A DNA stretch of 64,000 nt from contig JAFKAC010000025.1 in assembly GCA_025766275.1 (NCBI GenBank), forward strand, positions 682,001-746,000, read 5' to 3'. The notes under the pieces are model-generated. The model saw only the letters and a list, made by a program, of their open reading frames with translations, had not been told where the DNA came from and made no database searches. This DNA comes from Lactarius indigo (lineage: Eukaryota > Basidiomycota > Agaricomycetes > Russulales > Russulaceae). Shown piece after piece: positions 18,199 to 50,494 of this stretch; positions within the stretch are counted from its first letter, which is position 1; every line of letters starts with the position of its first letter. A program made the position numbers and the translations under genes.

Positions 18199-21100
18199 TC
18201 ACCGAAAGTTGCGGGCCGGCCAATCGCGCTGTTCGTCGGCAATGCGTTCCAACGCGGTGGCGCGCTCCAAGCGGTAGATTGCGTCGCGTCGATCGTCCTG
18301 TGCACATTCGATCATGGCGCGGAGCTGACTCACCCTCGCCCGGAGTCTGTCCAGCTCGTAGCTGGCCGCGCGGAAGCGCGTAACCTCGGCGGTGAGCGAC
18401 TCGTCGTTGATGCGGTTGAGCGCGCGGTCGGTGATCTTATCCGCCTCGAAAACGACGAGGTCCTCGTGCGGATACGTGGGGCGGAGCGCCGCGGATACGT
18501 GGGGTTCTGCATAGAGGGGCTTACCATAGACGTGTGGCGAACCCGGTATGACTCCCAATATGAGGGGGTCTGCCCCTCCGATGATTTGGACGTGCGACGC
18601 GTCCCTTTCTACTCCGTCTGGCCCGGTGATGGGGTATCGAATGTGATGGGGTCGTCGGTTCGCCCGGAACCCTTCAGGCGCAATGACATGCGCGGGGTCC
18701 TCGGCGGCGGTGAACGGACGGTGATCGGCGGCACCAGGCACGCGCACACGTCCTCGATACATGGGGGACCCGTCGGAGTAGACGAGCCAGGGCGTGACGA
18801 GGGGATTATCAGGGTCGCGTTTCATTCGAAGGAAGGTGTGTCTCGCCGGGTAATAATCTTCGTCGTCATGGCCAGCCTCAGCTGCCGCCATCGCTGCCGC
18901 CGCTCGCGCATCTCCCTCAGTCGGGCCGCTGCTGAGTCCAACTGCTCCTTCTGCCATGCTGCCGCTACCCTCTTCCAACCCTCCAACTCGTACTCCATCA
19001 GCGCTTGAACGCTGGTCGTTGCTTGGGAAAACTCCGCGAACGCCGATGAGGTCGTCGCTTGGGGGGATAGCGGCGATGGGTTCGCGTTCGCCGCGATCGT
19101 TTCGGAAGACGTGGACGACGGCTCGGTCGTCGTCAGGGGTGGTCGTCGGGTCTGGGAATCTGGTGACGACGTTGATCCATTCTTGTGCGGTGATGGGCCC
19201 CTCTGCTGGTGTAAGAGGTGTCCATGGCGTGAGCTGAGTGTTGGGAATTTCGGTGTCGCTGTCTTCTGCCAAGAGGGCACGGGCGTCTTCTGCGAGGGAG
19301 TCGAGGAGTTGCGCCTGTGTGACATGTCGTAGTGGGGAAGTGGGCATGAGAGTGATGGTAGAGCGAAGGAAGAGGGGATGACTGTCCTCTGTCCGGGCAA
19401 CTCCCACTTTATCTCTTTTACCGTGGGTTTGCGCTTCCTGATACAGGCGAAGTGCTTCCGGCGCAAAGACGTCGTCTTTGTTGACCCACTGGTTCTCCGA
19501 GTCTGGGTACCCCTTCCATTTGATCAAGTATTGGAGGCGCCTTCCTCTGCCGAAGTGCCGAGTGTCTAGAATGGCCTCGACTTCATATTCCTCTTCTCCA
19601 TCTATCAGTTCGGGCGGTGGCCGTGTGAAGTTCTCCCCGTGCAAGGAAGTTTGCTTGTATGGTGTGAGAAGATCGATGTGAAACACTGGATGGATGCTCC
19701 ACTGCGTGGGAAGTTCCAATCGATAGTTGTAAGGGGACATCACCTGCACCACCCAAAAGGGTCCATGACGTCGCGCCGCTAATTTCGCTGTAGGTTGATT
19801 GGTTCGGAGATGTTTGCCCTCGAGCCATACGAGATCATTGATGTTGAACTTGGGCGTATCTTTGTTACGCACCCATGACTCTTGCGCCTTCTTCATAAGG
19901 CGTTGGGCGGCGTCCCTGGCCTCCTTTAGCTGCGTCAGTCGCGCGGTTGTGAGGGGAATGGGAGACGGCTTATCCGTCCAGTCCGCTTGGGGATTATACC
20001 CCATCAGAAGTTGGAACGGCGACTCTTTAGTGTGTTCATGTGGCCAGTTGTTATGCGCAAATTCGGCGATTGGTAGATAAGCTTCCCAGTTGTCTTGCCG
20101 CTCATTTACCCAGAAGCGTAGGTACTGTTCCAGCCATTGGTTAGTTCGCTCGGACTGTCCATCAGTACGTGGGTGATATGCGGTGGATATGTTCTGTTGA
20201 ATTCCCAGAATGCGGCATACTTCTCTGGTGAACTTGGATGTGAAGCGTGGGTCGCGGTCGCTTATTATTTTGCGCGGCAATCCGAAGCGCTTGAACACTT
20301 GGGCGACATACAGAGTCGCCGTTTCTTCTGCGGTGATTTCTTCTCGGCATGGGATAAAGATTGAGGCCTTGCTGCAGTCGTGGTCCGTGACCGTCAGTAT
20401 ACTATCATACCCCTTGGAAACAGGGAGCTTGGTGATGAAGTCTACCGCCACCGTGTGAAACGGCGTGGCTTCCAGTATTGGTGTGATGGGATGTAACGCG
20501 GCTCGTATGGGCCTCGTGTTGACCTTATTCCTCTGACATTCTGCGCAACCTTGTACGTATTCATATACGTCCCTTCGGAGTTGCGGCCACCAGTAGTGTC
20601 TCTCCAGGATGCGTTGAGTTTTTGCAATTCCCGGATGGCCATGTATTGGCAGGTCGTGATGGTCATGTATAAGTACTCGTTGAGTCGATGCTGGCCCTGT
20701 GATTACGAACCTGCCGTCTTTGTACCATTCTCCTTGTATCTTCTTGAGGTGATAAGGGTCGACCCATATTTTGATCACCTCCTCATCTTGTTGGTGGCGT
20801 GGTTGCAGTAGGTTTGGATTTGCGACGAATGTGCGCGCAGTGTTAAGGGTTCGTACGAAGATTTCGGGGGGTAAGACCACCACTTCGCTGTTGTCCTTGA
20901 CGCCTTGGTCGTAATCCGGTCGTCTTGACAACGCATCTGCCCGCCCGTTGTTCTTTCCCTTAATGTGATGAATTTCGAAGTCGTATTCAGAAAGTTCGAG
21001 TACTTCCCTGGCGACTCGCCTGCTGATCTTCTGTGGTGATTTCCAGTACTGTAGGTTCAGATGGTCTGAATAGATTTTGATCTTGTGGGGGGCACCCGCG

Positions 21101-22428
21101 AGGAGTGGTCGCCAATTCCGTAGGGCCTTAACTATTGCGAGCAGTTCTAGGTCGTAGATGTCGTAGTTTCTTTCGGCTTCGGAGAGCGTCGCCAAGTAGT
21201 AGCCTATGGGATGTCGCTTGCCGTCAGATTTCTTTTGTAGTAATACGGCTCCCACCGCATAGCCCGAAGCGTCCACTTCCAATTCGAATGGGTCTTGAAG
21301 GACGGGGTGTGCTAGCACCGGTTCTTCCGTCACGAGTCGTTTTAGGGTGTCAAACGCCCTTTCTTCCTCTTCAGTCCATTGCCAATCTTCGTCTTTTCGT
21401 GTTAGTTTGGTGAGTGGCTTGGCGTGAGTTGCGAAACCGCGGATGAAGAGTCTGTAAAAGTTACAGAAGCCGAGAAAGGAGCGGACGTCTTTGACCTTTG
21501 TTGGTGTTGGCCAGTCCTTGATTCCTTGAACTTTTACAGGGTCCATTCGAGTTACCCCCCTTTCAAGGATTACCCCCAGGTAATCCATCCGCGGTTGATG
21601 GAACAGGCACTTCTCAAGTTTGAAGTAGAGGTCGTGTTCCTCCGCGACGCGCAAAACATCGCGGACGGCGTCTGTATGGGCCGTTAGATCGTGATCGAAG
21701 TGAGTAGCGATACCAATATTGTCCATGTAGACGCGTATGGTAGTGCCCAGCCGTTCGTGCTTCGCTATGGTGTCGCGATAGATGTGGTTCATCATGGCTT
21801 GGAAGGTGGCGGGGGAGTTAGTGAGCCCGAAGAACATGACCGTGGGTTCGAAGAGGCCGAACTTGGTTTTGAACGCCGCCTTCTCTTGGTCGCCGTCACG
21901 AATGCGTATGTTGTTGTAGCCCCATCGGATGTCGAGTTTGGTGTAGATATGGGCATTGCTGAGGTCAAGGATGAGGTCTTGTATTAACGGTAGCGGGTAT
22001 TGATTCTGAATGGTGTGGGAGTTGATGACCCAGTAGTCCTGTACCGGGCGTAGTTTTCCGTCCTTCTTTTTAATGAAGAAAAAGGAGGATGCGTACGGAG
22101 AGATGGAGGGGCGTAGATACCCTTGCTTTAGTTTTTCGTCTAGGAACTCTTTGAGTTCGCCTTCTTCTTTTTGGGTCATAGGGTAGATTTTGCAGTCGAT
22201 GGCGGCCGGCGCGGATGGCTTGAAGTCTATTGCATGATCCCACGGCCTTGCCGGGGGGAAGCGGTGCGAGGCTTGCTTGTTGAAAAGTCTGGTGAACATT
22301 GCGTATTCCTGAGGGAGCACCGCTGCCGTTTGTTGTTGTTTCGCTTGTATGGCCAATTCCGTCGAGGTGGTGGCTTTAGCGAATGTTTCTTCTTCTAGTT
22401 CCCGTACAATGTCTTCCTTTTCGGCCAC
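18199..22428 (-). CDS. Element 1 pol: RT, RNase H, integrase, chromodomain and C-terminal extension
   Basis: 1,409-codon frame continuing the protease frame after one TGA (22438-22440). RT: YPMTQKEEGELKEFL, SSFFFIKKKDGKLRPVQDY, and active site YMDN at about residue 234, where the family has YMDD. Residues normally DYR are DYW (about 22030). RNase H: FELEVDASGYAVGAVLLQ to KNNGRADALSRRP. Integrase: HHCC zinc finger (HGHPGIAKTQRI, CAECQRNK) and a DD35E core (AVDFITKLP, ISDRDPRF, DGQSERTNQWLEQ). Chromodomain: YEVEAILDTRHFG and LQYLIKWKGYPDSENQW, about residues 935-985. The last ~220 residues form a conserved extension (TPWLVYSDGSPMYRGRV, YGKPLYAEPHV, and a coiled-coil end). The active-site change predicts a dead RT; the other catalytic residues I can see are present. 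Confidence 0.9.
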   Translation of the reverse strand: MAEKEDIVRELEEETFAKATTSTELAIQAKQQQTAAVLPQEYAMFTRLFNKQASHRFPPARPWDHAIDFKPSAPAAIDCKIYPMTQKEEGELKEFLDEKLKQGYLRPSISPYASSFFFIKKKDGKLRPVQDYWVINSHTIQNQYPLPLIQDLILDLSNAHIYTKLDIRWGYNNIRIRDGDQEKAAFKTKFGLFEPTVMFFGLTNSPATFQAMMNHIYRDTIAKHERLGTTIRVYMDNIGIATHFDHDLTAHTDAVRDVLRVAEEHDLYFKLEKCLFHQPRMDYLGVILERGVTRMDPVKVQGIKDWPTPTKVKDVRSFLGFCNFYRLFIRGFATHAKPLTKLTRKDEDWQWTEEEERAFDTLKRLVTEEPVLAHPVLQDPFELEVDASGYAVGAVLLQKKSDGKRHPIGYYLATLSEAERNYDIYDLELLAIVKALRNWRPLLAGAPHKIKIYSDHLNLQYWKSPQKISRRVAREVLELSEYDFEIHHIKGKNNGRADALSRRPDYDQGVKDNSEVVVLPPEIFVRTLNTARTFVANPNLLQPRHQQDEEVIKIWVDPYHLKKIQGEWYKDGRFVITGPASTQRVLIHDHHDLPIHGHPGIAKTQRILERHYWWPQLRRDVYEYVQGCAECQRNKVNTRPIRAALHPITPILEATPFHTVAVDFITKLPVSKGYDSILTVTDHDCSKASIFIPCREEITAEETATLYVAQVFKRFGLPRKIISDRDPRFTSKFTREVCRILGIQQNISTAYHPRTDGQSERTNQWLEQYLRFWVNERQDNWEAYLPIAEFAHNNWPHEHTKESPFQLLMGYNPQADWTDKPSPIPLTTARLTQLKEARDAAQRLMKKAQESWVRNKDTPKFNINDLVWLEGKHLRTNQPTAKLAARRHGPFWVVQVMSPYNYRLELPTQWSIHPVFHIDLLTPYKQTSLHGENFTRPPPELIDGEEEYEVEAILDTRHFGRGRRLQYLIKWKGYPDSENQWVNKDDVFAPEALRLYQEAQTHGKRDKVGVARTEDSHPLFLRSTITLMPTSPLRHVTQAQLLDSLAEDARALLAEDSDTEIPNTQLTPWTPLTPAEGPITAQEWINVVTRFPDPTTTPDDDRAVVHVFRNDRGEREPIAAIPPSDDLIGVRGVFPSNDQRSSADGVRVGGLEEGSGSMAEGAVGLSSGPTEGDARAAAAMAAAEAGHDDEDYYPARHTFLRMKRDPDNPLVTPWLVYSDGSPMYRGRVRVPGAADHRPFTAAEDPAHVIAPEGFRANRRPHHIRYPITGPDGVERDASHVQIIGGADPLILGVIPGSPHVYGKPLYAEPHVSAALRPTYPHEDLVVFEADKITDRALNRINDESLTAEVTRFRAASYELDRLRARVSQLRAMIECAQDDRRDAIYRLERATALERIADEQRDWPARNFR

Positions 22429-22437
22429 AATGAGGGC

Positions 22438-24987: not shown

Positions 24988-25466
24988 TGTAACGCCGTCA
25001 CGACGTTAGCTCGACTTGAGCTCTGTAGAGGCGGTAACAACTTAGCGATCTTCTTGAAGACACGAAGGTCCAAGCGTAGGTGATGGTGAACACTCGAAGG
25101 CGCACTCCTTATAAGCGATGATAGAGAGGAAGAGAGAGAGAGGGAGAGAGAGAGAGATAGGAAGGAACAAGTGACGATTCAAGAAGACCAAGATGGCGTA
25201 TCTTGGTCTTCGCAAGACAGATTAAATACAAGTCGAGCAGGCTTTCAAGCGCTGCTATGAGTCACGGTAATGTAGCGTCCAACGTGTCGCGTAAGTAACT
25301 CGAATCCTAATACTACTACTACTAGTATTAGTGGCGTAGTCCTCAGTCAGCAATCATCGCGCGATCTCCTATCGTACCTGTAATCGCCTATCGTAAGTCC
25401 GCAACTAATCTACCTTACCGCCGTAGTTGCAACCGGTACAGTAAGGGTATGAGTCGAAACGTAACA
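24988..25466 (-). repeat. Element 1 5' LTR (479 bp)
   Basis: Promoter LTR of element 1. On the minus strand a TATA-like motif (about 25225) precedes a predicted RNA start at about 25194. An inverted repeat of the priming sequence (AAGACCAAGAT ... ATCTTGGTCTT, 5-nt spacer) spans that start. Confidence 0.92.
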
Positions 25467-27577
25467 ATCACGACGTCAGCTTGACTTGAGCTCTAAAGGG
25501 GGTGACTTGACTTAGCTGAATCACATGTAAAAGTGTATGGCATGAAGGCAACCCTAGATGTTTGAAGACACTAGATAGATAAGGCACTCTTATAGAGGCG
25601 TACAAGATAAGCAGGGATGATACAAGACAAGAAGTGATGATTGAAGAAGACCAAGATGGCATATCTTGGTCTTCTGCTACTACCTTATATACAAGAAAAG
25701 CAGGCTTTGAAGTGCTGCTATGAGTCACTGTAAAGTAGTGTCCAACGTATCGCAAAAACACATCAAACCCTAATACAACTACTACTAGGGTTGAGTCATA
25801 GTCTCAGTCAGCTATCATGCACGAATCTCCTATCATACTACATCATAAACCCCTAAGTCCATGACTAATATACCTTACTGCCGTAGCCACAACTGGTACA
25901 GTAAGGGTACACACATGAATCATGACATCACCCCCTTTTCAGTGTGAGACTCCAGACTCACTGGAAATCATAAGATGCCCACTTGTGCTGTTTGTCCTCA
26001 ATATGCCTAAAGACATCGGCACGCTCCAGCCAATAGATGCAGTCCAACTTATCCTCACGGGTGGTGAGGACCATGGCGCACAGCTGGCAGACGTGTGCCT
26101 GCAGGCGCATCTCTTTGTGGGCCACGGTGCGATAGCATGTCACCTCTGCAACCAGGGACTTGTCCCCTATGCGGTTAAGTGTGTGGTCAGTGAGCTTGTC
26201 GGCGGCAAGGATAACAAGATCCTTGTGAGTGATGAAGGCGCGATTCACAGCTGAGAGTTGTGGATGGGCATAAAGGGGTTTGCCATAGAGATACAGGGAT
26301 CCTGGGATGACTCCCAGGATGAAGGGGCTTGCACCTCCAATAATCTGAACATGACTTGCCTGTTGCTCTATGCCATCTGGTCCGGTGATGGGGAAAGGAA
26401 TGTAATGGGGCTGTTGATTCGCCTGGAACCCCTCAGGTGCAAGGACCTGCGCGGGGTTGTTGTTGGGCGTGATGGTGGTATGTGGTGCGATGCTGGGCAG
26501 TTGCACATGTCCTCGAGACATGGGGGTTCCGTTGGTGTGGACAAGCCATGAGGTGATTTGGGGATCAGTAGGGTGGCTGTGTGTTTGAAGGAGGGGGTGT
26601 CTGACTGGGTAGTAATTTTCGTCGTCATGGTCAGCTTGGTCAGGCATCACTGCCTGCACCACCACAACTCACTCAATCTCTCCTGCGCTAACCTCAACTG
26701 TTCGCTGGCCCATTCCCTGGCCGTCCTCTGCCAGACCTCCTCGGCCTCCCTCTCCAGCTGGTCCCTTGATAGGTCAATCAGTTGGGAAAACTCCCCTAAC
26801 ACCAATAAGAGTGTCATCTGGGGGGATGATGGCAATGGGTTCCCAATTGCTGTTGTCATCTTGGAAGATGTGAGTGATGGCATACTGCTTGTCGCTGGGC
26901 TGGCACGCAGGGTCTGGGAACCTCTATAAGAGGCTAGCCCATTCTTGAGCAGTGATATGCCCCAGTCGCACATTTGCAGGTGTGTACGGAGTGAGCTGGA
27001 CCTGTGGAACCATGGTTTCTTCATTGTCTTGGAGGATGGTGGTGGCATCTTGTGTGACTTGGTTGAGGAGGATCGCCGTGGTGACATGTCTGAGAGGGGA
27101 AGTGGGCATGGAAGTGTAAGACAATCAAATGTAGGAGGGATACTCTCCTTGATTGTCTGAGGGCTGGCTTTTAAGATGTTGTGTGGTTGTCTGGCCTGCC
27201 CAATATGCCTCTATTGCTTCTGGAGCAAATATGTCATCCTTATCAACCCACTGATTTTCCAAGTTGGGATATCCCTTCCATTTGATGAGATACTGAAGTT
27301 TTCTTCTCCAGCTGAAATGCTGAGAGTCTAGAACTGCCTTGACCTCATATTCTTCTTTGCCCTCCACAAGATCTGGGGGTGGATGTGGGAAGTTTTCGCC
27401 ATGAAAGGCAGTACTCTTGTATGGTGTGAGAAGATTGATGTGGAACACTGCATGGGAAGTTCAAGGTGATAGTTGTAAGGGGACATTACCTTGGTTATCC
27501 TGAATGGTCTGTGGTGTCGTGCCACTAATTTTGCCATTGGTTGATTGGTCCGGAGATGTTTCCCTTCTAACCTGTAA
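25467..27577 (-). mobile_element. Element 2: older truncated relative, host of element 1
   Basis: The LTR starts at 17675-17688 (TGTAACACCATCAC), is split by element 1, resumes at 25467/25472 and ends at about 25927 (ATGACA), total about 470 bp. It is clearly related to element 1's LTR but well diverged. Internal sequence follows from 25928 and stops at about 27577 in the middle of the integrase C-terminal region (homologous to about 19820 of element 1). No second LTR is seen. 27578-27725 is unassigned sequence starting TGTTACAG, perhaps another LTR scrap. Confidence 0.85.
25958..27560 (-). pseudogene. Element 2 pol C-terminal remnant
   Basis: Several minus frames together reproduce the end of an element-1-like Pol. 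They include the GPY/F-like region (AKLVARHHRPFRITKVMSPY, about 27530), a chromodomain (EEYEVKAVLDSQHF, LQYLIKWKGYPNLENQWVDK, about 27250-27360), the linker MPTSPLRHVTTA ... ITAQEW (about 26950-27110) and the 230-residue extension (ENYYPVRHPLLQ, PAQVLAPEGFQANQQPHYI, YGKPLYAHPQL, about 25960-26600). Frames change between these parts, so it is dead, but the extension itself stays open. Confidence 0.85.
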
Positions 27578-27725
27578 TGTTACAGTAGGAACATTCAGCT
27601 TGGCATAAGCAAGTCTGGTCTTTCTATGTCAATGAGCGAGGGTTCAGCTGGTAGTGGCAAGGTTTAAGTGGTTGACAAGGATCTCAGAGTATGACACAAT
27701 ACTCAAGATGTGAATGGAGTTCAGG

Positions 27726-28233
27726 TGTTACGGTACGGACTTAATGACTCATTACACATGACTCATGACCGGTTATGACTACGGTCCGGTATCAGTATTA
27801 GTCATGGACTCTTACATCGCATCAGTCAGCATAGTAGTTCGCATGTGATTGTGACTCCTGTATGACTCATTCCTAGGATAGCTGTACTAGGGTTCGAGCT
27901 AGTTACGCTATTGGTTATCTACTATTCCAGCGGCGCTTTAAAGCCCGCGCGTATCTGTATAAGTAGTCGACTCGGAAGACCAAGAGTCCCCATCTTGGTC
28001 TTCTTCAATCCACCATTTGATTCGTCTTCTGCCTGCCTTAGTCTTGGACTAAGCGTGCTTCCGCTCGTATCCATCAGAGATACTCCTCTTTATCCCTTTC
28101 GCTGCAGCGTGTGCCAGTGCGCCCCTGTTCAGCCTGCGTTGGGTTGACACGTGTTCCCCATTCGCCTAGCTTCCGCTAAGTCGATTACACCCTTCATGAG
28201 TCCAAGTCGGACTAACGCCGGTGGAGCGTAACA
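27726..28233 (+). repeat. Element 3 5' LTR (508 bp)
   Basis: Carries TATAAG at 27958-27963 and ATCTTGGTCTT at 27992-28002, the predicted RNA 5' end, preceded by an inverted partner AAGACCAAGA at 27976-27985. Confidence 0.9.
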
Positions 28234-28235
28234 TT

Positions 28236-28246
28236 AAGACCAAGAT
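28236..28246 (+). promoter_or_regulatory. Element 3 primer-binding site for self-priming
   Basis: AAGACCAAGAT, two bases after the LTR end, is the exact complement of 27992-28002 in the LTR, 34 nt downstream of the TATA motif. Confidence 0.75.
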
Positions 28247-28254
28247 CCTCAAAC

Positions 28255-30210
28255 GTGGCGTATTCAACTAGAGATCAGTGGACGTCTTTTCGTCCTTACC
28301 ATATCGAACGACGAGGAGATCGCAACGTACCAACAAGATTCCTGGGAGCAGCCCAGTGGAGAGAACGAGGAGAGGATACCGGGTACTTTGTAGAGTTCAA
28401 CGGTCCTAACCGCTTCCGACCCGTTGAGTTCAATTTCGAACACCTCTGTTGGACCGAGGTTACTTGGAACCCCGTAGATTATCGCTGGGACATAATACGA
28501 CCAGCCGGGAGAAACTACAACTGTGACATCGATACAAGAGAGCTCAATAGCCGGGCAGATTACGGTCCCATTGACGGACAAGCACAAGAACATACAGACG
28601 AAGGAATTAGCGGCGGAGAAGAAGCCTCCGAGAGCCAATCACCAAGTAGAGGAACGACACCAGCGGAGGAAGCCAGCCTAGGAGCCATCGGAGACCACAT
28701 CATACAACGAACTGAGTCCCTCACCATTCATCAACCCGAACCAGAAGTAATTCATATTCACAGCCCAGCAGTCGCGATGGCCACTGCTACTATCACACAC
28801 AAAGAAGTCCTTACCACCGAGGCAAGAGATCAAATAGCCTTAGAAGAGCAGAGACACATAGCGGAAGAATCCCGAGCCAACCTAGCCCCTATCAACCCTT
28901 ACACCGGTCATCGAATGACCGACGACGATGTAGCAATTCACCGAGCCATCGGGCCGGACGTAGCAGACCCTCCTAGTGGAGGAAGAGGAGGACCCCCTGA
29001 ATTACCAGGAGGAGGAGGACCCCCATCAAGAGGACCCGGATTCGGCGGATTCCCCGGAGGGTTCCCAGGGGGGCCACCAGGGGGAGGACCACCGGGAGGA
29101 GGATTACCAGGTGCAGGTCCCATTATTCCCCCTCCAAGTAACAAATTAGCTGGCGAAGCACCTACAGTATTTGACGGAGAACGTACCAAGGTTGAAGCGT
29201 TTCTCACTCAATGGCATGTCTACTGGGGCATGAACGCCGACAAAGGCATTATGGCAACTCCATACCGACGTGCCTTACTTTTTCTCTCCTACATCAAAGG
29301 CGTCAACGTCAGCGAATGGGTATTAGCCATGCTCACCTGGCTCAACGGCCAGATACAAGCTGGGATACCTCGTACCAGCGAAGGATTATGGAACGAAGTC
29401 ACGCGCAGTTTCATGCAGCGCTTCCGAAATACGATGGAGCAAGAGCAAGCTCAATACGAACTCAAAAAGGGAGTTAAAATGATTGGGGGCAATCTAGATG
29501 AGTATTGCACCCAATTTGAACAACTAATACGCCGCGCTCAATATCGACTCGATGATCCTCAGACATTGGATCTCTTCGCAAGCGGGCTACCAAAAGATCT
29601 GTATGAGAAGGTCTATACCCTCAATAACCCCCACAACTATCGCGAATGGAAGGAGGCTGCAACTACCCGCCAGCAGCAATATCTTCACCTTAAAGCGGTA
29701 TTAAACAAAGGAGTTCCTCAAGGACAGGGGAGATCACGACAACAGGGCCAGTGGCAGGGGCCGCCAAGAAGTTCTTGGCAACCACGGAACCTACCCCGAG
29801 ACCCAAATGCAATGGACACCTCGGCAGACCGAATTCGAGGGCGACTTGCAGGAGCCGAAGACATACTTGCTCCTCGTCCCCCATATCGACCAAGGGGAGG
29901 GTTCCTCCAAAGAGGAGGAGGACGTAACAATCAAAGGCCAGTCACCTGCTATAACTGTGGGAAGGACGGACATATGGCCTGTGATTGCAGGCAACCACGA
30001 GGAGGCTATCAACCTCAAGCATCAACCAGTCGGTATATCGATACCGACTATCATCAACAAGAACCAGAAGTCGCTACCAGGGCGGTTCAAGAAGTACCCC
30101 CTCAACAGCGCGCCAGCGACTGGCTTAATGGAGTAGCGGGAGAATCGGATGACGTAAAAGACATTATCCTCCAACAATTGTGGAAGAAGGAGGGTTTTCA
30201 GGACGCCTGA
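28255..30210 (+). CDS. Element 3 Gag, apparently initiated at GTG
   Basis: 651 codons. GTG 28255 (context AAACGTGGCG) is the first start-like codon; the upstream frame is open only back to a TAA at 28213 and has no ATG. The conserved N-terminal domain matches element 1 (DQWTSFRPY, FRPVEFNFEHLCWTEVTWNP, RELNSRADYGPIDGQ). The first in-frame ATG comes only near residue 175 (AVAMATAT). Then come a Gly/Pro linker (about residues 240-290), a capsid domain (FLTQWHVYWGMNADK, LLFLSYIKGVNVSEWVL), and a CCHC knuckle CYNCGKDGHMACDC at about residue 564. Ends QLWKKEGFQDA. Confidence 0.88.
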   Translation: MAYSTRDQWTSFRPYHIERRGDRNVPTRFLGAAQWRERGEDTGYFVEFNGPNRFRPVEFNFEHLCWTEVTWNPVDYRWDIIRPAGRNYNCDIDTRELNSRADYGPIDGQAQEHTDEGISGGEEASESQSPSRGTTPAEEASLGAIGDHIIQRTESLTIHQPEPEVIHIHSPAVAMATATITHKEVLTTEARDQIALEEQRHIAEESRANLAPINPYTGHRMTDDDVAIHRAIGPDVADPPSGGRGGPPELPGGGGPPSRGPGFGGFPGGFPGGPPGGGPPGGGLPGAGPIIPPPSNKLAGEAPTVFDGERTKVEAFLTQWHVYWGMNADKGIMATPYRRALLFLSYIKGVNVSEWVLAMLTWLNGQIQAGIPRTSEGLWNEVTRSFMQRFRNTMEQEQAQYELKKGVKMIGGNLDEYCTQFEQLIRRAQYRLDDPQTLDLFASGLPKDLYEKVYTLNNPHNYREWKEAATTRQQQYLHLKAVLNKGVPQGQGRSRQQGQWQGPPRSSWQPRNLPRDPNAMDTSADRIRGRLAGAEDILAPRPPYRPRGGFLQRGGGRNNQRPVTCYNCGKDGHMACDCRQPRGGYQPQASTSRYIDTDYHQQEPEVATRAVQEVPPQQRASDWLNGVAGESDDVKDIILQQLWKKEGFQDA

Positions 30211-33200
30211 ACCCATCGGCCTGGGTGAGGGCAGTTAATTGTAACAGTGTAATCATGACTCGCTATCGTTCTATGAGAGTTCCAGTATCGATTCGCACCA
30301 GTTACGCAATGGCCGACATACGCGCATTAGTTGACTCTGGAGCAACCCACTGCTTCATGAAACCCTCCTTCGCAAAAAGGATGAGGCTCGGGACCAAACT
30401 ACTCGACGTCCCAAAGAAAATATGGAACATTGACAATACAGAAAACAAATCGGGGCGTATCACCCATTATACCGACGTTGATGTTCAAACTAAAGGCATC
30501 CATAAGGAAATTCGCTTCCTTATTACAGACATCGGCAACGAAGACATTGTATTAGGCTATCCCTGGCTTGCCATCTACGACCCGCACATCAAATGGTCGC
30601 AAGCAGCCATTCACGAGGATATGCTTCCCATTGTTATCCGTTCAACTAACCCTTATATCAAAACAACACCAGTTGTGGCGACAACTACCGTCCAAAACGA
30701 TGACTATGAAATAGTACACTCTTGTGTCGTCACGGACGAACAGCGGCAACAGTTTGAAGAAGAGTGTCGGATCAGGGCCACTGCCACTGACCTCGCCATT
30801 GCCGCTCAACAATATGTTACTAAAGCTGAGTTACCCCCTGAATATCGCGAATTCGAACGTCTCTTCAGCGAAGAAGCATCGGACAGGTTTCCACCCAGCA
30901 GGCCCTGGGATCATGCCATCGAATTCAAACCAGGAACCGCTGACGCTATCGATTGCAAGATATACCCTATGACGCAAGAAGAGGACAAGAAACTACGTGA
31001 ATGGATCGACGAACAGCTCAAAAAGGGGTATATACGACCTTCTAAGTCTCCATACGCGTCTTCTTTCTTCTTTATCAAGAAGAAAGATGGGAAACTACGG
31101 CCTGTTCAAGACTATCGGAAAATAAATGCCGTCACTATTCGCAATCAGTATCCTCTTCCTCTCATCTCCGACCTCATCACAGATCTCAGTAATGCCCACA
31201 TTTACACCAAACTTGACGTTAGATGGGGGTATAACAACGTGCGTATTAAGGAGGGGGATGAAGAGAAAGCGGCATTCAAAACGCGTTATGGATTATTTGA
31301 ACCAACGGTGATGTTTTTTGGCCTAACCAACTCCCCCGCAACGTTCCAGATGATGATGAATTTCATCTTCAGGGATATTATCGCGAAGCATGAAAAACGG
31401 GGCACCGTTATTCGCGTTTACATGGACGACATCGGTATCGCAACCGGACTAAAACACTCCCTGTCGGATCATATAGAAGCGGTCAAGGACGTACTCCACG
31501 TATCCGCGGAACACGATTTATACTACAAACTCGAAAAATGCCTCTTCCACTCCCCACGTATGGATTACCTGGGGGTAATCCTTGAAAAGGGGGTGACACG
31601 CATGGACCCTGTCAAAATTTCGGGCATCAAGGACTGGCCCACACCAACCAAGGTCAAGGACGTCCGCTCTTTTCTCGGCTTCTGCAATTTTTACCGACCC
31701 TTTATACGAGGCTTCGCAACCAAGGCACGACCTCTCAACAAGCTCACGCGCAAAGATACCGAATGGCGCTGGGGAACAGAAGAGGAGAAGGCATTTCAAG
31801 ACCTCAAGACCCTTGTCACTAGCGAACCTGTCCTTGCACACCCGGACCTCACGCAACAATTTGAACTAGAAGTCGATGCATCCGGATTTGCCACCGGAGC
31901 TGTCCTCCTCCAGCGCAAAGCGGACGGTAAAAGACATCCCATTGGCTATTATTCATCTACTCTTAACGAAGCCGAGCGAAACTACGACATCTACGACCTT
32001 GAACTCCTGGCAATTGTTAAAGCTTTCCACCACTGGAGACCCCTTTTAGCAGGTTCCCCCCACAAAATCAAAGTATTCTCCGACCATCTCAATCTACAAT
32101 ACTGGAGATCGCCACAGAAGATAAGCAGACGCGTGGCCAGGGAAGTACTCGAACTTTCGGAATATGACTTCGAAATCCACCATATCAAAGGTACTTCCAA
32201 CGGGCGCGCTGATGCACTGTCGCGAAGGCCAGATTACGACCAAGGGGAAAACGACAACGAAGGAGTCACAGTGCTGCCCGAAAGCATCTTTGTACGCGCT
32301 ACTACACTGGAAGAACCACAACATCCGCACTGGAGACCTGAGATCTTACCGGTAGAAATGACTCCAGAACACCCTATTTACGAGCAGGACACAGCTAAGT
32401 TGAAACCTTGGGTTGACGCTCACAAGCTAAAAGACATCGAAGGGACATGGTATAAGGATGGGCGTCGAGTAGTCACCAGCGGCATTCACGACAAACGCAC
32501 CATTATTGCCGCTCACCATGACTCCCCCGTCTACGGTCACCCAGGTATCAAACGTACTCTTCAACTCACTGAACGGCATTACTGGTGGCCGCAAATGAAA
32601 AACGACGTCATAGACTACGTCAGGGGCTGTGCAGAATGCCAGCGGCACAAAGTCAACCTTCGTCCCATCAGGGCGCCCTTACAACCCATTTACCCCAAAC
32701 CGGAAGCTTTACCGTTCGAGACTATCGCCGTGGACTTTATTACTAAACTCCCTATCTCTCGTGGCTACGACTCTATTCTGACGGTGACAGACCACGATTG
32801 CACTAAAGCTGCCGTCTTTATCCCGTGCAATGAAGAGATAACGGCCGAGGGAACGGCCGCTCTGTATGTTTCTCACGTATTCCCACGATTTGGACTCCCC
32901 TCGCGCATTATCAGTGATCGAGACCCCTGTTTTGCATCCAAGTTCATGCGAGAGATATGCAAAATTCTTGGCATCAGCCAAAATATCTCAACCGCTTATC
33001 ATCCCCGAACCGACGGCCAATCGGAACGAACCAACCAATGGCTAGAGCAATACCTCCGCTTTTGGGTAAATGAACGACAAGATGATTGGGTTCGTTATCT
33101 GCCAATGGCAGAATTCACGCATAACAACTGGCCTAACGAAACGACACGGGAGTCCCCTTTCTTTCTCTTATCTGGGTTCAACCCTCGCGCTGATTGGACC

Positions 33201-34985
33201 GATAGGCCTTCCCCTATCCCACAAGTGTCGTTACGGCTAGATCAGTTTAAACAAGCGCGACAGCGCGCTTTCTCCTGTATGCTCCGGGCGCAAAAGTCAT
33301 GGGTCAAGCACAAAGATATGCCCAAATTCAAAGAAGGAAACCTTGTATGGCTAGAAGGACGCCACTTACGCACTCATCAACCAACCGCAAAACTAGCGGC
33401 TAAACGACATGGACCATTTAAGGTTATCCAGGTGATGTCCCTTGTCAACTATCGACTCGAACTTCCCACGCAGTGGAGCACCCATGACGTGTTCCACATA
33501 GATCTTCTCACACCTTATTGCGAGACACCCACGCACGGACCAAACTATCAGCGCCCACCACCTGATTTGGTCGATAACGAAGAAGAATACGAGGTCGAAA
33601 AGATTCTAGACTCTCGGCGATTCGGCAGAAGACGTCGGCTCCAATATCTCGTCAAATGGAAGGGCTACCCGGACTCCAATAATCAATGGATAGATAAGGA
33701 TGACGTATTTGCCAAAGAAGCCGTTCGGGAGTTCAAACATTCTAACCCCGACAGGGAAACACATATAAGAAGGACCTCTTGTCGTGATAAGTCCCCATCA
33801 CCCACTTCTTCTATGCCTTCTACTCGACGCAATGACCAGCTCGCACTCCTCTCTACCCTCGTCAACGACTCCTCCGCCACGCTTGTCAACCCCGACTCCG
33901 CCAACGACGCCGCAACCACTAGAACTACGGGAGGAAGCTGTCCCTCCATGCAGCATGAGGAAGACGGCCCTATCACTAGCGAAGAACTGCACCAGACACT
34001 GCAACGATTCCCTCTGCCCCTACAGGGAGTTGTCGACGACGATCCAGCAGCAACTCAGCCAGCACCTCCACCAATGTACGCCATCACAAATCCCAACACC
34101 GGTGAGCCCGAAACCTTCCTCACCAAAGACGAGTTATTTCGGCTTCAAGCAGCTGTCCCGCGCGGTGAAGCCACCCAACGCCATAGAGAAGTACGAACGA
34201 GAGTGGAAGGAAACGGCGGCGCGGTGGCAGCGGGAGCAACTGCATATCGCCGCTTGCCGACGCCGAATGATGAAGGAGCAGAGGGAGTATTGGACAAGGA
34301 TGAGGATGAAGACGAGCTTGGAGACCACTACCCCATCAGGCACGCATTCCTTAACCATAAATTCTATGCTGAAGATCCAGCCGCCACTCCCTACCTCGTC
34401 GACGCAGCGGGGGGGCCTTTACACAGAGGACGAGTCGCCGTGGCACAAGCGACTCGTTATACACCAATGGGCGAGCGAGACCCAGCAACCAGAGTCGTCG
34501 TCCCTGAAGGGTTCCGGGTCAATGGAGGACCCGATTACATTCCGTTCCCGATCAAACTCCCCAACGGACCGACGGTACAAGCATCCCACGTACAGGTTAT
34601 CCGAGGAGGAGACCCCTTCGTACTCGGATTAGCTCCGGGGTCGGGCTTCCTTTATGGTAAACCCCTCTACGCCACTCCTCACCTCCCCAAGAACAACCGC
34701 GCTTTCATCCCACATGAGGAGTATTTCTTACTCCGCGACCGACACCCCACGGACCTGTTACTAATGCGCATTGGGGATGTCACCCTCACTCAGGAACTGC
34801 GCCGGTTCCGCCAGTTTGCTTTCGCCGAAGACCAACTGGAGAAGCGGCTACGGCAGCTACAGCTGGAAAAGGAGATGGTGGTTCAGGACAAAAAGGACAG
34901 TCTCTATCGCCTCGAAAGGGCTAACATACTAGCGCGGATGGAAGATGAAGCGGAGAAGATGAGAAAAGAATTGGTGGCGGACTAG
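30180..34985 (+). CDS. Element 3 Pol polyprotein with chromodomain and C-terminal extension
   Basis: Continuous 1,601-codon frame in -1 phase to gag, overlapping it by about 30 nt; actual translation should begin at the GGGTTTT slip (30192-30198). Protease ALVDSGATHCFM near residue 52. RT with FFFIKKKDGKLRPVQDYRKI and intact YMDDIGIAT near 414. RNase H VDASGFATGAVLLQ and DALSRRPDYDQ. Integrase HHCC (HGHP-type YGHPGIKRT, CAECQRHK) and DDE (AVDFITKLPIS, ISDRDPCF, DGQSERTNQWLEQ). Chromodomain YEVEKILDSRRFG / LQYLVKWKGYPDSNNQWI near 1137-1180. Residues ~1380-1601 are the conserved extension (DHYPIRHAFLNHK, TPYLVDAAGGPLHRGRV, FLYGKPLYATPHL, then a coiled coil). The chromodomain presumably steers integration to marked chromatin. 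Confidence 0.93.
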   Translation: MEEGGFSGRLNPSAWVRAVNCNSVIMTRYRSMRVPVSIRTSYAMADIRALVDSGATHCFMKPSFAKRMRLGTKLLDVPKKIWNIDNTENKSGRITHYTDVDVQTKGIHKEIRFLITDIGNEDIVLGYPWLAIYDPHIKWSQAAIHEDMLPIVIRSTNPYIKTTPVVATTTVQNDDYEIVHSCVVTDEQRQQFEEECRIRATATDLAIAAQQYVTKAELPPEYREFERLFSEEASDRFPPSRPWDHAIEFKPGTADAIDCKIYPMTQEEDKKLREWIDEQLKKGYIRPSKSPYASSFFFIKKKDGKLRPVQDYRKINAVTIRNQYPLPLISDLITDLSNAHIYTKLDVRWGYNNVRIKEGDEEKAAFKTRYGLFEPTVMFFGLTNSPATFQMMMNFIFRDIIAKHEKRGTVIRVYMDDIGIATGLKHSLSDHIEAVKDVLHVSAEHDLYYKLEKCLFHSPRMDYLGVILEKGVTRMDPVKISGIKDWPTPTKVKDVRSFLGFCNFYRPFIRGFATKARPLNKLTRKDTEWRWGTEEEKAFQDLKTLVTSEPVLAHPDLTQQFELEVDASGFATGAVLLQRKADGKRHPIGYYSSTLNEAERNYDIYDLELLAIVKAFHHWRPLLAGSPHKIKVFSDHLNLQYWRSPQKISRRVAREVLELSEYDFEIHHIKGTSNGRADALSRRPDYDQGENDNEGVTVLPESIFVRATTLEEPQHPHWRPEILPVEMTPEHPIYEQDTAKLKPWVDAHKLKDIEGTWYKDGRRVVTSGIHDKRTIIAAHHDSPVYGHPGIKRTLQLTERHYWWPQMKNDVIDYVRGCAECQRHKVNLRPIRAPLQPIYPKPEALPFETIAVDFITKLPISRGYDSILTVTDHDCTKAAVFIPCNEEITAEGTAALYVSHVFPRFGLPSRIISDRDPCFASKFMREICKILGISQNISTAYHPRTDGQSERTNQWLEQYLRFWVNERQDDWVRYLPMAEFTHNNWPNETTRESPFFLLSGFNPRADWTDRPSPIPQVSLRLDQFKQARQRAFSCMLRAQKSWVKHKDMPKFKEGNLVWLEGRHLRTHQPTAKLAAKRHGPFKVIQVMSLVNYRLELPTQWSTHDVFHIDLLTPYCETPTHGPNYQRPPPDLVDNEEEYEVEKILDSRRFGRRRRLQYLVKWKGYPDSNNQWIDKDDVFAKEAVREFKHSNPDRETHIRRTSCRDKSPSPTSSMPSTRRNDQLALLSTLVNDSSATLVNPDSANDAATTRTTGGSCPSMQHEEDGPITSEELHQTLQRFPLPLQGVVDDDPAATQPAPPPMYAITNPNTGEPETFLTKDELFRLQAAVPRGEATQRHREVRTRVEGNGGAVAAGATAYRRLPTPNDEGAEGVLDKDEDEDELGDHYPIRHAFLNHKFYAEDPAATPYLVDAAGGPLHRGRVAVAQATRYTPMGERDPATRVVVPEGFRVNGGPDYIPFPIKLPNGPTVQASHVQVIRGGDPFVLGLAPGSGFLYGKPLYATPHLPKNNRAFIPHEEYFLLRDRHPTDLLLMRIGDVTLTQELRRFRQFAFAEDQLEKRLRQLQLEKEMVVQDKKDSLYRLERANILARMEDEAEKMRKELVAD
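30192..30198 (+). promoter_or_regulatory. -1 frameshift heptamer GGGTTTT at gag/pol overlap (element 3)
   Basis: Gag codons GAG GGT TTT CAG give the slippery site G GGT TTT. A possible stimulatory hairpin, ACCCA-TCGGCC-TGGGT, starts at 30211, 12 nt downstream; element 1 keeps ACCC...GGGT in the same place. Confidence 0.7.
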
Positions 34986-38244: not shown

Positions 38245-38690
38245 CCTGTGTAAGTTAGTCCAGTTGGACAAGGCACGACACATAGTTTAACACAGGGAAG
38301 GGATCTTGAGAGTCAGGACGTGATGTGTGTACAGGCGTCCAGGACGCCACACACATACACACAGACCAGCTCTATCCAGTACGCATAGTCCAGGTTTGGT
38401 CCAGTGACAAGACATGACATATATGACATACTGGATGTTTGAGAGTCAGAGCGTGATGCGTGTACGGGCGTCCAGGACGCCACGCACATACACACAGACC
38501 AGCTCTTTCCAGTACACATAGTCCAGGTTTGGTCCAGTGACAAGACATGACATATATGACATACTGGATGTTTGAGAGTCAGGATGTAATGTGTGCACAG
38601 GCGTCCAAGACGCCACATACACACACACACAGACCAGCTCTTTCCAGTACACATAGTCCAGGTTTGGTCCAGTGACAAGACAAGACATAC
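38245..38690. repeat. Palindrome repeat array A (three ~133-bp units)
   Basis: Three direct units of about 133 bp, each beginning TTGAGAGTCAGGACGTGATG and holding GGCGTCCAGGACGCC, a 15-bp palindrome with 7-bp arms (38334-38348, 38467-38481, and 38600-38614 with one mismatch). Each is followed by CACACAGACCAGCTCT and GTCCAGTGACAAGACATGAC. The same core recurs in opposite orientation at 45.9-46.4 kb. Open frames on the minus strand here are repeat-driven. Confidence 0.85.
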
Positions 38691-39424
38691 ATAACCCAGG
38701 TGGAAGTGTAGTGCGTGTGGGTCGTTGCCTGGTCTGAGCAGGATGGCGGCAGCGCCGACCTTCCCTTCATGTGCCAAGCCATCTGAGTAGAATTTGATTT
38801 CCTTGCTCCCTTCTTTGTCAGCTTTCTTGGATGCTTCTTTGTTGCTCACTATTTCAATGCTCAATGGTCTCCTGTGTGCCGTTGCTGGGTTTGTTCCTAT
38901 GGCCGGAATTGTTTTGAATTCGTTTGGCTTGATGTTGAACGTTTGCATGAGGTCGTGAAGGGGGACTTGTGTCTCTTGATGTTCTTGTTTGTGGCTTTTC
39001 TTGTGGGTTTGTAAAGGGGGTGCTCCAGAGGTAGCGTTGCGATGCGGGATGTTTCCCTGAAGAGATGTTTTTCTATTTTGAGCTGCATCGGGATGGTGTC
39101 TGCATGTGCGTTAAGCGTGTCAGTTGGAGAGGTGCGAAGCCCGCCTGTGATGGCTAGGCTGCCGTCTCTTTGTACGGAGTTCAGCTTGTTTCTTTGTCTT
39201 TTTATCTTCCCAATTTCACTTGATGTTTCGTTCTTTGCGGCGTGACTTCCCCATACGTCAACCGCGTATAACGTCCTTGGTATTGCGACTCCAATGTAGA
39301 GTTGATGCGCGCGGTTCGGGATGATACCACAGCTTGGTGCCGCTGCAAGGATCAGTACTTTACTACACTTGCCTGACACATACAGACACCCCAGCCACCT
39401 CAGTATCAATACCAACGCCACCAA
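38690..39424 (-). mobile_element. LINE (non-LTR retrotransposon) fragment, RT C-terminus and RNase H
   Basis: Minus-strand sequence reads RAHQLYIGVAIPRTLYAVDV, DGSLAITGGLRTSPTDTLNA, LFRETSRIATLPLEHPLYKP, then after a one-base loss at about 38965 it reads FNIKPNEFKTIPAIGTNP and the RNase H start KFYSDGLAHEGKVGAAAILL. This is the RT-thumb to RNase H region of LINE elements common in Agaricomycetes. The 5' part is missing, and the RNase H is cut off where palindrome array A begins. A dead fragment. Confidence 0.75.
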
Positions 39425-45899: not shown

Positions 45900-46360
45900 G
45901 GGATGCACAGACCAGAAAGAGTCTGTGCGTGGCGTCCTGGACGCCTGTGCACACATCACATCCTGACTCTCAATTTCCTTTCTTCCAGTATGTTATGTGT
46001 GTCATCTCTCTGTGTGGCGTCCTGGACGCCAGTGCACATATCACATCCTGACTCTCAAATATCCTTCCTTCCAGTATGTTATGTGTGTCATCTCTCTGTG
46101 TGGCGTCCTGGACGCCAGTGCACACATCACGTCCTGACTCTCAAAATCCCTTCCCTTCAATGTGTTACATATAAGTTATGTGTGTCATCTCTCTGTGTGG
46201 CGTCCTGGACGCCTGCGCACACATCACGTCCTGACTCTCAAAACCCCTTCCCTTCAATGTGTTACATATAAGTTATGTGTGTCATGTCTTGTCCAAGTGG
46301 ACCACACAGACTGGAAAGAGCCTATGTCTGTATGTGTGTGGCGTCCTGGACGCCTTTGCT
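45900..46360. repeat. Palindrome repeat array B (five units, inverted relative to array A)
   Basis: GGCGTCCTGGACGCC at 45931-45945, 46016-46030, 46102-46116, 46199-46213 and 46340-46354. Each of the first four is followed by CACATCACRTCCTGACTCTC, the reverse complement of the unit start in array A. Spacings 85, 86, 97 and 141 bp. The outer unit also carries CATGTCTTGTCCAAGTGGAC, matching the left edge of array A inverted. Confidence 0.85.
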
Positions 46361-49800: not shown

Positions 49801-50494
49801 ATTCAGCCACCTCTGTCCATAATCCCTTGCGCTGCAACAACCCTCCAGTGACCTTGACCACATCCAGCGAGCCAGCTTGCAGAAAGCGCACACACTCGGA
49901 TGTCACCTGGTCCAAAAGAGGTGGTGGCACGACAATCAAGAACGGGTGATCGGGTAGCACGGCATGTTTACCAGCCCAGTCTGACCATCCATTCGTCGTC
50001 CCTTTCATATGTGTCATCTTGGGTGTCTCTGAACTTATTGCACGATAAATATTGCTTACCCCACATCCCTGGGTATCTCCCGCTCTCCCTGTGCACCATA
50101 CGGTAGTACGCCAGCATTGCAAAGAAGGCTAGGACCTGGACAGTCTTTCCGAGCCCCACGTCGTCCATCAACAAGACAGGTTGCGACGCCTGCGCACGTT
50201 CGACCATCCTTGTAACCCCAACGAGTTGGTGCCATCGCAAGGAAAATGGTTCCATTCTACTGGCACCAGATTCCCCAGGTGTGTCAAGCTCTTCAGAAAT
50301 TTCATCCCTGAAGAATGGGATCGCGTGTCTCTCCAACCTGAGCAGTTGGTACAGTTCCTCAGGTGTCTTCTTCTGCAGGTGTTCCACCCCCTCAGACCAG
50401 TCCATCGCGGGCTCAGGCGCAAAGTCGAACACCACCTCGTCTTCCATGTGGGCCTTCTCCAGCTCCAGGCGTTCTGACAGTTGCTGGCACATTA
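46841..50494 (-). pseudogene. SNF2-family ATPase, 3' part (gene split by element 4)
   Basis: Continuation of the gene starting at 59511. Many exons with short introns encode the SNF2 helicase core: Walker A MDDVGLGKT (about 50147-50173), DEAH box AIDEAHGFRN (about 49540-49566), motif III GMTATP (about 49465-49482), helicase C LISNVGSVGLNIAFAN (about 48320-48370) and motif VI-like QLIGHIWRHPQ (about 48200-48235). A basic, Lys-rich linker and a Ser-rich tail follow. These enzymes move or remodel nucleosomes in the nucleus. Two in-frame TGA codons interrupt the tail (47407-47409 and 47102-47104). The exon at the left border is cut by element 4 in the middle of GREVDIMCQQL, so no full protein can be made. 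Confidence 0.85.

Follow-up and report, generated by a model that had tools for sequence, protein, structure and literature searches.

The DNA that follows the chromodomain in retrotransposons of the window (the whole stretch of 64,000 nucleotides analysed) is best read as an accessory cassette in the 3′ part of Ty3/gypsy chromoviruses, where two genes would overlap, one in the Pol frame and one in the +1 frame; we put the probability of this reading at about two in three. Judging from codon variation, the +1 gene is almost certainly real. The predicted +1 ORF, which was absent from the initial annotation, overlaps the larger part of the linker and the beginning of the domain. Substitution patterns show a predicted second protein in the +1 frame, of 238-267 residues depending on the family, both in the element 1 and element 3 families and in the element 2 relatives examined. 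A second protein in the other frame of the same DNA, preserved in many copies, resembles what is found in compact viruses.

The Pol-frame module after the chromodomain

Element 3 has an open Pol frame of 1610 codons (30153-34985, + strand) with PR, RT, RH, IN, SH3_Tf2-1 and a chromodomain, followed by the C-terminal module. By the order of its Pfam domains (PR-RT-RH-IN-chromodomain) and its LTRs, it is a Ty3/gypsy chromovirus; terminal direct repeats are present in elements 1, 3 and 4. The Pol of element 1 is an open frame as well (18199-22437, − strand), and many of the genome matches listed for the element families have an open Pol frame of about 1610-1622 codons. A dUTPase-bearing basidiomycete element was rejected as a candidate, as Pfam matched no dUTPase family to the Pol of element 3.

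The initial annotation had proposed a conserved module outside PR-RT-RH-IN-CHD in elements 1-3 and had placed a series of motifs after the chromodomain. The motifs were found at these places and the module does exist, the C-terminal regions being common to all three elements at 41-42% identity. Counted from a conserved Met (AUG1), which is kept in 41/41 element-3 and 21/21 element-1 copies, it spans 33813-34985 (+; 390 residues, pI 5.4) in element 3 and 18199-19347 (−; AUG1 at 19347) in element 1. In the decayed element 2 the domain still lies in an open stretch (25958-26668, −) of 236 codons, in agreement with the more than 230 claimed. The core, from PEGF to YRLERA (34503-34922, +, in element 3), is common to distant related elements and is probably beta-rich. 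The RFP block was attributed to elements 1 and 3, where it occurs, but it is not confined to them; element 2 has RFP just after a stop (LL*RFPDP).

Codon substitutions show that this predicted protein module (linker, core and long helix) is kept by purifying selection. Pol-frame dN/dS in element 3 was 0.02-0.17 in 7/7 90-nt windows from 34338 to 34967, compared with 0.00-0.04 in RT. The outcome named in advance as refuting, dN/dS near 1 with RT constrained, therefore did not occur in the folded part. In windows at 33888, 33978 and 34158, Pol dN/dS was 2.63, 1.25 and 2.71 and that of the +1 frame was 0.13, 0.09 and 0.15, respectively. Because Pol dN/dS is high and +1 dN/dS low there, reading the linker half of the interval first annotated requires the +1 frame as well as the Pol frame.

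As had been supposed, no named domain was found for elements 1-3: all Pfam families were below the cut-off and PDB searches gave no convincing match. The best sub-threshold Pfam match, DUF6347 (PF19874), reached 19.4 bits in L086 against a cut-off of 25 and was absent from two element 1 type sequences and six related Pol proteins; 4 of 12 members of the set searched matched it at E up to 1, and it was rejected. The PDB sequence search with the domain returned no chain at E up to 10, a further search returned a single, unconvincing chain at E 0.52, and a search with the +1 alignment gave nothing convincing. AlphaFold2 models of the domain and the +1 product (three window sequences each) had mean pLDDT of 50 and 54, with only helices confident; in the Pol-frame product of 34290-34982, a long helix is predicted at residues 164-230 (block pLDDT 75-90 from 181 on). 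Because of the low mean pLDDT of the domain model, the outcome of Foldseek (nothing at E 0.001 or better; best E 1.5) has little meaning.

Neither the post-chromodomain region nor the +1 ORF found homologues in a set of 5.8 billion proteins. In contrast, a profile search with the region, as the initial annotation had suggested, matched 24 of 120 listed related Pol proteins with E-values under 1e-8. That search covered the final 700 residues of each protein, its E-values refer to the set of 120, and the 120 are the matches listed from a search of the protein set with the RT region. Because 24 of these RT-found relatives carry the domain, the null result with the post-chromodomain region reflects limited word sensitivity. 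The viral contigs searched contained no relatives, and a search of this genome for P0014-type families gave scored matches at most 34% identical, the places compared being known families. The domain represents an unnamed protein domain family that is present in many related Pol proteins of public data.

The module may be more than a tail of Pol, namely a gene unit in its own right that begins at a conserved start codon. Alternatively, it could extend integrase at the C-terminus, be processed by the protease and serve the intasome or targeting beside the chromodomain; the Met would then mark a flexible border and the +1 gene would be a separate matter. The module directly follows IN and the chromodomain and is in frame with Pol without an intervening stop, and long open Pol frames are common, as such an extension would have it. 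However, in 30 of 38 related proteins, which are not independent of one another, a Met immediately before S, P, T or A lies no more than 110 residues past the chromodomain Trp, mostly 33-57 residues beyond it. In addition, P0021 and P0025 are identical at 81/90 positions before this Met and at 72/485 after it; the recurrent Met and such unrelated 3′ parts fit a gene border better, although one pair is thin evidence. We give the integrase extension somewhat less than an even chance.

Start codons and proposed expression of the +1 frame

The overlapping +1 ORF of element 3 extends from AUG2 to a TAG (33832-34632, +; 266 codons, pI 9.5). Its predicted product is basic and Ser/Thr/Pro-rich with one long helix, modelled by AlphaFold2 at residues 115-166 (34174-34329, +; mean pLDDT 92-96 in blocks covering residues 121-160), in which W125, W132, E135, Q136 and L137 are invariant among 13 aligned sequences. 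Element 1 has the ORF as in its family (18609-19325, −; AUG2 at 19325, stop at 18611-18609), and its window copy carries a premature +1 stop at 18824-18822. In element 2 the +1 frame is open from AUG2 (27087) to a stop at 26649-26647 (26647-27087, −), a stretch in which the Pol frame has three stops.

AUG2 and the TAG were each invariant in 62/62 copies, while the overlying Pol codons varied (AAT/GAT/CAT at AUG2 and CTA/TTA at the TAG). AUG2 lies 19-22 nt downstream of AUG1, with no ATG between them by eye. Every one of the 62 copies of the element 1 and element 3 families has a pyrimidine at −3 of AUG1 and a purine at −3 of AUG2. The sequence thus has the weak first AUG, the stronger second AUG and the lack of an intervening one by which candidates for leaky scanning are recognized. 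Because the context of AUG1 is poor and that of AUG2 better in both families, ribosomes could pass AUG1.

Expression is probably by internal initiation with leaky scanning. The Pol-frame module would be made both as the C-terminus of Pol and alone from AUG1. A 3′ RNA, either spliced or internally started, would carry the AUG1/AUG2 pair, and scanning ribosomes that skip AUG1 would initiate at AUG2 to make the +1 protein. We consider it marginally probable that these two starts are the ones used. Stretches of low variation precede AUG1 at about 19390-19362 in element 1 and about 33786-33797 in element 3, but they offered no arguable branch point or donor, and neither a splice site nor a promoter was established. 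A full-length RNA would hold several AUGs upstream of AUG1, which counts against the model.

If ribosomes instead made a programmed +1 frameshift within the linker, the +1 protein would arise as a Pol fusion, in which a shortened Pol ends in a different tail, and a subgenomic RNA would be unnecessary. A frameshift would also agree with where constraint sets in: the first ~20 +1 codons of element 1 are without +1 constraint, which begins near 19260, and in element 3 the constraint is clear only from about 33888. However, AUG2 is kept throughout despite changes of the overlying Pol codon, and when L083 was compared with L084-L086, the first 40 codons had a +1 ratio of 0.34 and a Pol ratio of 1.51. 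The two boundaries share no slippery sequence, by eye only. A frameshift is therefore unlikely.

Codon variation within the overlap

The overlapping gene is under purifying selection, as seen in frame-specific constraint together with conserved start and stop codons, and this constraint is uneven along the ORF. Among 41 element-3 and 21 element-1 copies, Pol-synonymous sites were far less variable within the +1 ORF; third positions were variable at 38% inside versus 90% outside in element 3, and at 33% versus 82% in element 1. Parsimony counts of changes that are nonsynonymous in Pol and synonymous in +1, versus the reverse, which inter-copy recombination may inflate, were 463 versus 372 inside the +1 ORF and 279 versus 6001 elsewhere in the examined pol stretch of element 3, and 135 versus 176 inside and 175 versus 2348 elsewhere in element 1. 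The copies were 40 of 149 other matches of the element-3 family, 20 of 149 of the element-1 family and 14 of 88 of the element-4 family, and the genome lists, taken from a far larger number of candidates, gave the best-scored 150, 150, 89, 144, 150 and 150. Pol-stop counts are biased because mostly copies with long Pol frames were taken.

The +1 ORF was open in 39/41 element-3 and 16/21 element-1 copies, and the +1 frame was stop-free in 131/144 and 136/150 of the best-scored genome matches, as ranked by similarity. In element 3, 4 of 1068 changes inside the ORF created a new +1 stop, versus 134 of 7126 elsewhere. On terminal branches of element 1, the ORF gained +1 stops no less often than the remaining sequence did (7 of 290 changes inside, 37 of 2168 outside). 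Together with the 5 of 21 element-1 copies whose +1 ORF is broken, this suggests that many recent copies do without the ORF or that its product acts in trans.

The comparison of L083 with L084-L086 gave +1 ratios of 0.30-0.63 in 5/6 first windows. At greater distance, between the element 1 family and L083-L086, the ratio was 0.50-1.46, which counts against constraint. The +1 ratio was also high in element 3 windows 34428 and 34518 (1.33 and 1.39) and in element 1 windows 19350 and 19170 (2.21 and 1.89). For this reason, the case for the first ~20 codons of the element 1 ORF and for the last ~60 of the element 3 ORF comes from reduced variation overall and not from the ratio.

Reduced variation could also arise if conservation of the +1 frame were a by-product of DNA-level constraint (RNA structure or a cis element) or of mutational bias, and some parts, including much of 18900-18660 in element 1, do vary little at all codon positions. 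However, the most variable stretches (33888-34067, 34158-34277 and 18990-18931) change mainly at Pol first positions; these are the third positions of +1 codons, where an overlapping gene is expected to vary. The difference between inside and outside persisted with transversions alone and at never-CpG sites. Moreover, variation in element 3 recovers at the +1 stop, rising from 30 to 93 changes per 30 nt just past it, and the start and stop codons are kept. We regard the by-product explanation as very improbable. With such copy numbers, selection on an overlapping gene becomes measurable in a cellular genome.

Possible function and related elements

The suggestion of an envelope-like function did not hold: a gene for cell-to-cell spread is extremely doubtful, and an envelope-bearing element (errantivirus/retrovirus-like env) was rejected, as neither element 3 product has a hydrophobic membrane span (highest 19-residue Kyte-Doolittle mean 0.93 for the Pol-frame and 0.11 for the +1 product) and no env family was among the Pfam matches. 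Instead, the two oppositely charged helical proteins would cooperate as accessory factors of genomic RNA or host defence, a proposal of low confidence. The likeliest single role would be handling or export of unspliced genomic RNA, by analogy with CERV of the C. elegans Ty3/gypsy element Cer1, although we consider even this role rather unlikely. According to the passages of PMC10309623 on Cer1, CERV is a species-specific, non-envelope protein required for genomic RNA export. As these passages describe it, CERV belongs to an animal element and is translated from an mRNA spliced from five exons, whereas the Lactarius elements have a long overlapping ORF inside pol; the proposed likeness is one of analogy.

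If the two-gene reading is correct, fungal LTR retrotransposons use gene overlap, probably with internal initiation, like complex retroviruses, and a second gene may hide in many annotated Pol proteins. Sendai virus P/C and lentiviral vif are viral examples of overlapping genes, and vif overlaps the end of pol. The viral genes treated in PMC2832772 likewise lie in the +1 frame over another gene and are reached past a first AUG by leaky scanning; the present case is a fungal LTR retrotransposon, and no homology is claimed. The fungal elements of PMC2864245 are also Ty3/gypsy chromoviruses with a chromodomain, and a figure legend there gives an 'add. ORF' of unknown function, but its section 5 and matched passages make no mention of a post-chromodomain module or overlapping gene. 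Bdelloid LTR elements with varied ORF3, as presented in the main text of PMC5408684, similarly have modules downstream of pol that are specific to single families and were in some cases gained repeatedly; these differ in being DEDDy-, GDSL- or env-like, and that text does not use the word 'overlap'. Among the open-access full-text papers listed by the literature searches, judged by title and the start of the abstract, none described the overlapping gene or the module.

In element 4 the Pol-frame module begins at a conserved Met (52518, ACCATG), spans 51100-52518 (−) and ends in CCHC knuckles; the Met and the A at −3, where the families of elements 1 and 3 have a pyrimidine, are present in 15/15 copies. 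The claim that this region is analogous stood in part, in that profile-profile comparison indicated a remote relative (110 columns, E 1.9e-4, probability only 48%), but pairwise BLAST was not significant (E 0.079). Element 4 gave no consistent overlap signal, and across the analysis interval containing AUG1, stops close the +1 frame in 15/15 copies. In windows 52806, 52356 and 51636 the ratio of another frame was below that of Pol, among copies that are 96-99% identical and have few differences. A 179-codon +1 stretch (51141-51680) is open without consistent +1 constraint.

More broadly, basidiomycete-type chromoviruses could have a complex-retrovirus-like layout, with a swappable 3′ accessory cassette that starts at a conserved AUG beyond the chromodomain and that in many lineages would include a +1 protein overprinted long ago; we hold this to be possible, though not the expected case. 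If this reading is correct, the apparent exchange of the cassette between elements offers a direct approach to the origin of accessory genes other than envelopes in retroelements. When 12/13 positions of the +1 helix motif had to be permitted, only 2 of 160,603 windows in the 120 proteins qualified, and both lie in post-chromodomain linkers, those of P0003 and P0066. These related linkers fit such a layout.

Constraint on the post-chromodomain module

The assembly containing the window comprises 90.3 Mb in 291 contigs, and four Ty3/gypsy elements lie in the window. Terminal repeats begin at 17689 and end at 25287 in element 1 (minus strand), begin at 27726 and 35018 in element 3 (plus), and begin at 50492 and end at 58159 in element 4 (minus); the decayed element 2 (minus) occupies about 25600-27700. 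Because repeat detection gave 300-nt pieces, the outer LTR ends are approximate. Two of the named relatives of these elements are from Lyophyllum shimeji. Outside the elements there are short tandem arrays at 38306-38706 and 45989-46268, with 133-nt and about 97-nt units.

Element 3 Pol matched the Pfam protease, RT, RNase H, integrase, SH3_Tf2-1 and chromodomain families and extends 414 residues beyond the chromodomain match. The conserved module that the initial annotation had described in this region is real and has no name: elements 1, 2 and 3 share 41-42% identity over their C-terminal regions, including the motifs originally listed. Copies are numerous in the same genome: the best 150 matches were scored among 1594, 1802 and 1479 candidates for the domains of elements 3, 1 and 2, respectively, and the best 89 among 847 for the element 4 region. 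The element 4 counterpart is remote (hhalign, 110 columns, E 1.9e-4, reported probability 48%). Among 120 related Pol proteins, a profile search recovered the Pol-frame core in 24 (E below 1e-8) and more weakly in P0096 (E 0.0066); its first 48 positions, which fall within the part overlapped by a second frame, were matched only by P0003, P0004, P0012 and P0082.

Selection was analyzed in 40 fetched copies of the element 3 family and 20 of the element 1 family, using Nei-Gojobori rates in 90-nt windows and all three frames. From RT through the chromodomain, Pol-frame dN/dS was 0.00-0.09. The folded part of the element 3 module gave 0.02-0.17 (seven windows from 34338), not the ratio near 1 beside a constrained RT that would have spoken against it.

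Element 4 Pol ends (51170-51430, minus) in zinc knuckles of the CCHC type, with a Pfam match slightly below the cut-off. Purifying selection on them is strong: windows 51456 and 51366 gave dN/dS of 0.01-0.02. Gag also has a knuckle-like motif, so the Pol knuckles are a second set. P0096 ends much like element 4 Pol, and a Cys/His motif (such as CARCGEQREYCHGH) occurs in the post-chromodomain linkers of other families (P0014, P0020, P0037, P0040 and P0066).

An overlapping gene in the +1 frame

The stronger finding is an overlapping gene in the +1 frame, at 33832-34632 (plus) in element 3 and 18609-19325 (minus) in element 1; both kinds of system involved, the chromovirus and the overlapping accessory gene, were known already. 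In the element 3 linker, the first part of the module, windows 33888, 33978 and 34158 gave Pol dN/dS of 2.63, 1.25 and 2.71 and +1 dN/dS of 0.13, 0.09 and 0.15, and element 1 window 18990 gave 1.59 and 0.03. Other windows within the +1 ORF favoured Pol: 34068 (Pol 0.17, +1 0.83), 34338 (0.06, 0.54), 34428 (0.17, 1.33) and 34518 (0.07, 1.39) in element 3, and 19170 (0.13, 1.89) and 18720 (0.24, 0.82) in element 1. Because some windows favour Pol and others +1, these rates indicate use of both frames, with stretches of one alternating with stretches of the other. In the Pol-favouring windows, the sole sign of +1 coding is reduced variation at Pol third positions.

Changes were counted on a tree of the first 2500 aligned bases (RT-IN). 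Within the element 3 +1 ORF, 463 changes were Pol-nonsynonymous and +1-synonymous versus 372 of the reverse kind, compared with 279 versus 6001 elsewhere; the element 1 counts were 135 versus 176 inside and 175 versus 2348 elsewhere. The contrast was kept with transversions alone (79/68 inside and 41/846 elsewhere in element 3; 18/23 and 14/262 in element 1) and at never-CpG sites (222/199 and 92/3553; 69/66 and 49/1508). In 30-nt steps, changes rose from 30 to 93 directly past the +1 stop of element 3 and more softly in element 1 (10, 20, 33). When the related family sequence L083 was compared with L084-L086, the third of the first six 40-codon windows had a +1 ratio of 0.99 and the other five had 0.30-0.63; past these six, the ratios were 1.40-2.18. 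The element 1 family compared with L083-L086 gave a weaker signal over the same stretch (0.50-1.46), where saturation is likely. No +1 constraint was seen in about the first 20 +1 codons of element 1, which counts against the gene, and element 4 showed no consistent overlap signal, with exceptions at some windows.

Of the 41 element 3 copies, 39 have an open +1 ORF, as do 16 of the 21 element 1 copies; the five element 1 copies with a premature stop include the one in the window (18824-18822). Changes creating +1 stops were depleted inside the element 3 ORF (4/1068 versus 134/7126 outside). In element 1 they were not depleted on terminal branches (7/290 inside, 37/2168 outside), and internal branches had 0/76 inside versus 10/798 outside. 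The premature stops and the lack of depletion on terminal branches in element 1 weigh against the gene. Scored genome matches were stop-free in 131 of 144 cases (element 3 type) and 136 of 150 (L085 type), in lists that favour intact copies because they were ranked by similarity.

Candidate translation starts and predicted products

The +1 ORF starts with ATG (AUG2) and stops with TAG in all 41 element 3 and all 21 element 1 copies. Over the start, element 3 has AAT, GAT or CAT as its Pol codon, with the T constant, and its Pol leucine codon at the stop is CTA or TTA only; among two-fold codons with an invariant residue in Pol-only sequence, the third base was invariant in 8 of 190 for element 3 and 25 of 181 for element 1. 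AUG1, a Pol-frame Met that could start the module, is kept in 41/41, 21/21 and 15/15 copies of elements 3, 1 and 4. At -3 it has a pyrimidine in 62/62 copies of the two +1-ORF families and A in 15/15 element 4 copies. AUG2 lies 19 or 22 nt downstream with a -3 purine (62/62), and L083-L086 have the same arrangement. About 15-45 nt upstream of AUG1, a low-variation stretch amid variable linker codons (33786-33797; 19390-19362, minus) is a candidate promoter or splice signal.

We propose that this 3′ cassette codes for two helical proteins: a Pol-frame protein produced with Pol and perhaps also separately from AUG1, and a +1 protein that would be initiated at AUG2 through leaky scanning. The main support for this proposal is the weak AUG1 and better AUG2, in contrast to the strong AUG1 of element 4. 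The predicted element 3 products have 266 residues and pI 9.5 (+1) and 390 residues and pI 5.4 (Pol frame, from AUG1), with no membrane span in either by hydropathy. AlphaFold2 predictions were confident only for helix 115-166 of the +1 product (best at 121-160) and helix 164-230 of the Pol-frame fragment, with a block of pLDDT 75-90 from 181. The nearest role in kind may be that of Cer1 CERV, an accessory protein that serves genomic RNA export (PMC10309623); a targeting or intasome role is possible.

Twelve of the 13 +1 helix-motif positions were permitted in only two of 160,603 windows, both in linkers (P0003 at 1270, P0066 at 1173). Six windows permitted 11, five of them in post-chromodomain tails (P0073, P0044, P0012, P0059 and again P0066) and one in the RT-RNase H part of P0119. 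Because the motif was derived from the window's own families and tail composition may add to the matches, this result gives a lead and falls short of proof.

A possible cassette border and the 5′ end

A Met with S, P, T or A as the next residue lies at most 110 residues beyond the chromodomain Trp, mostly at 33-57, in 30 of the 38 usable proteins among the 120, many of them closely related. The other eight lack such a Met, and the only one in P0033 is at 108. Between P0021 and P0025, 81 of 90 positions agree ahead of the Met and 72 of 485 beyond it, and the P0025 tail aligns with that of P0048 (107/312); different cassettes seem to have been attached at one shared point.

At the 5′ end, about the first 170 Gag codons (DQWTSFRPY...) seem well conserved between element 1 (24983-24400, minus) and element 3 (28240-28800) and contain no in-frame ATG in either, and the Gag start may be non-AUG or supplied by an upstream exon. 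Just past the 5′ LTR, a short segment (28233-28250; 24988-24974, minus; 57861-57851, minus) is complementary to part of the LTR region. In elements 1 and 3, AAGACCAAGAT pairs with ATCTTGGTCTT, and in element 4, where the LTR end is approximate, AAGCCAAGTCT pairs with AGACTTGGCTT; we take this to resemble Tf1-type self-priming.
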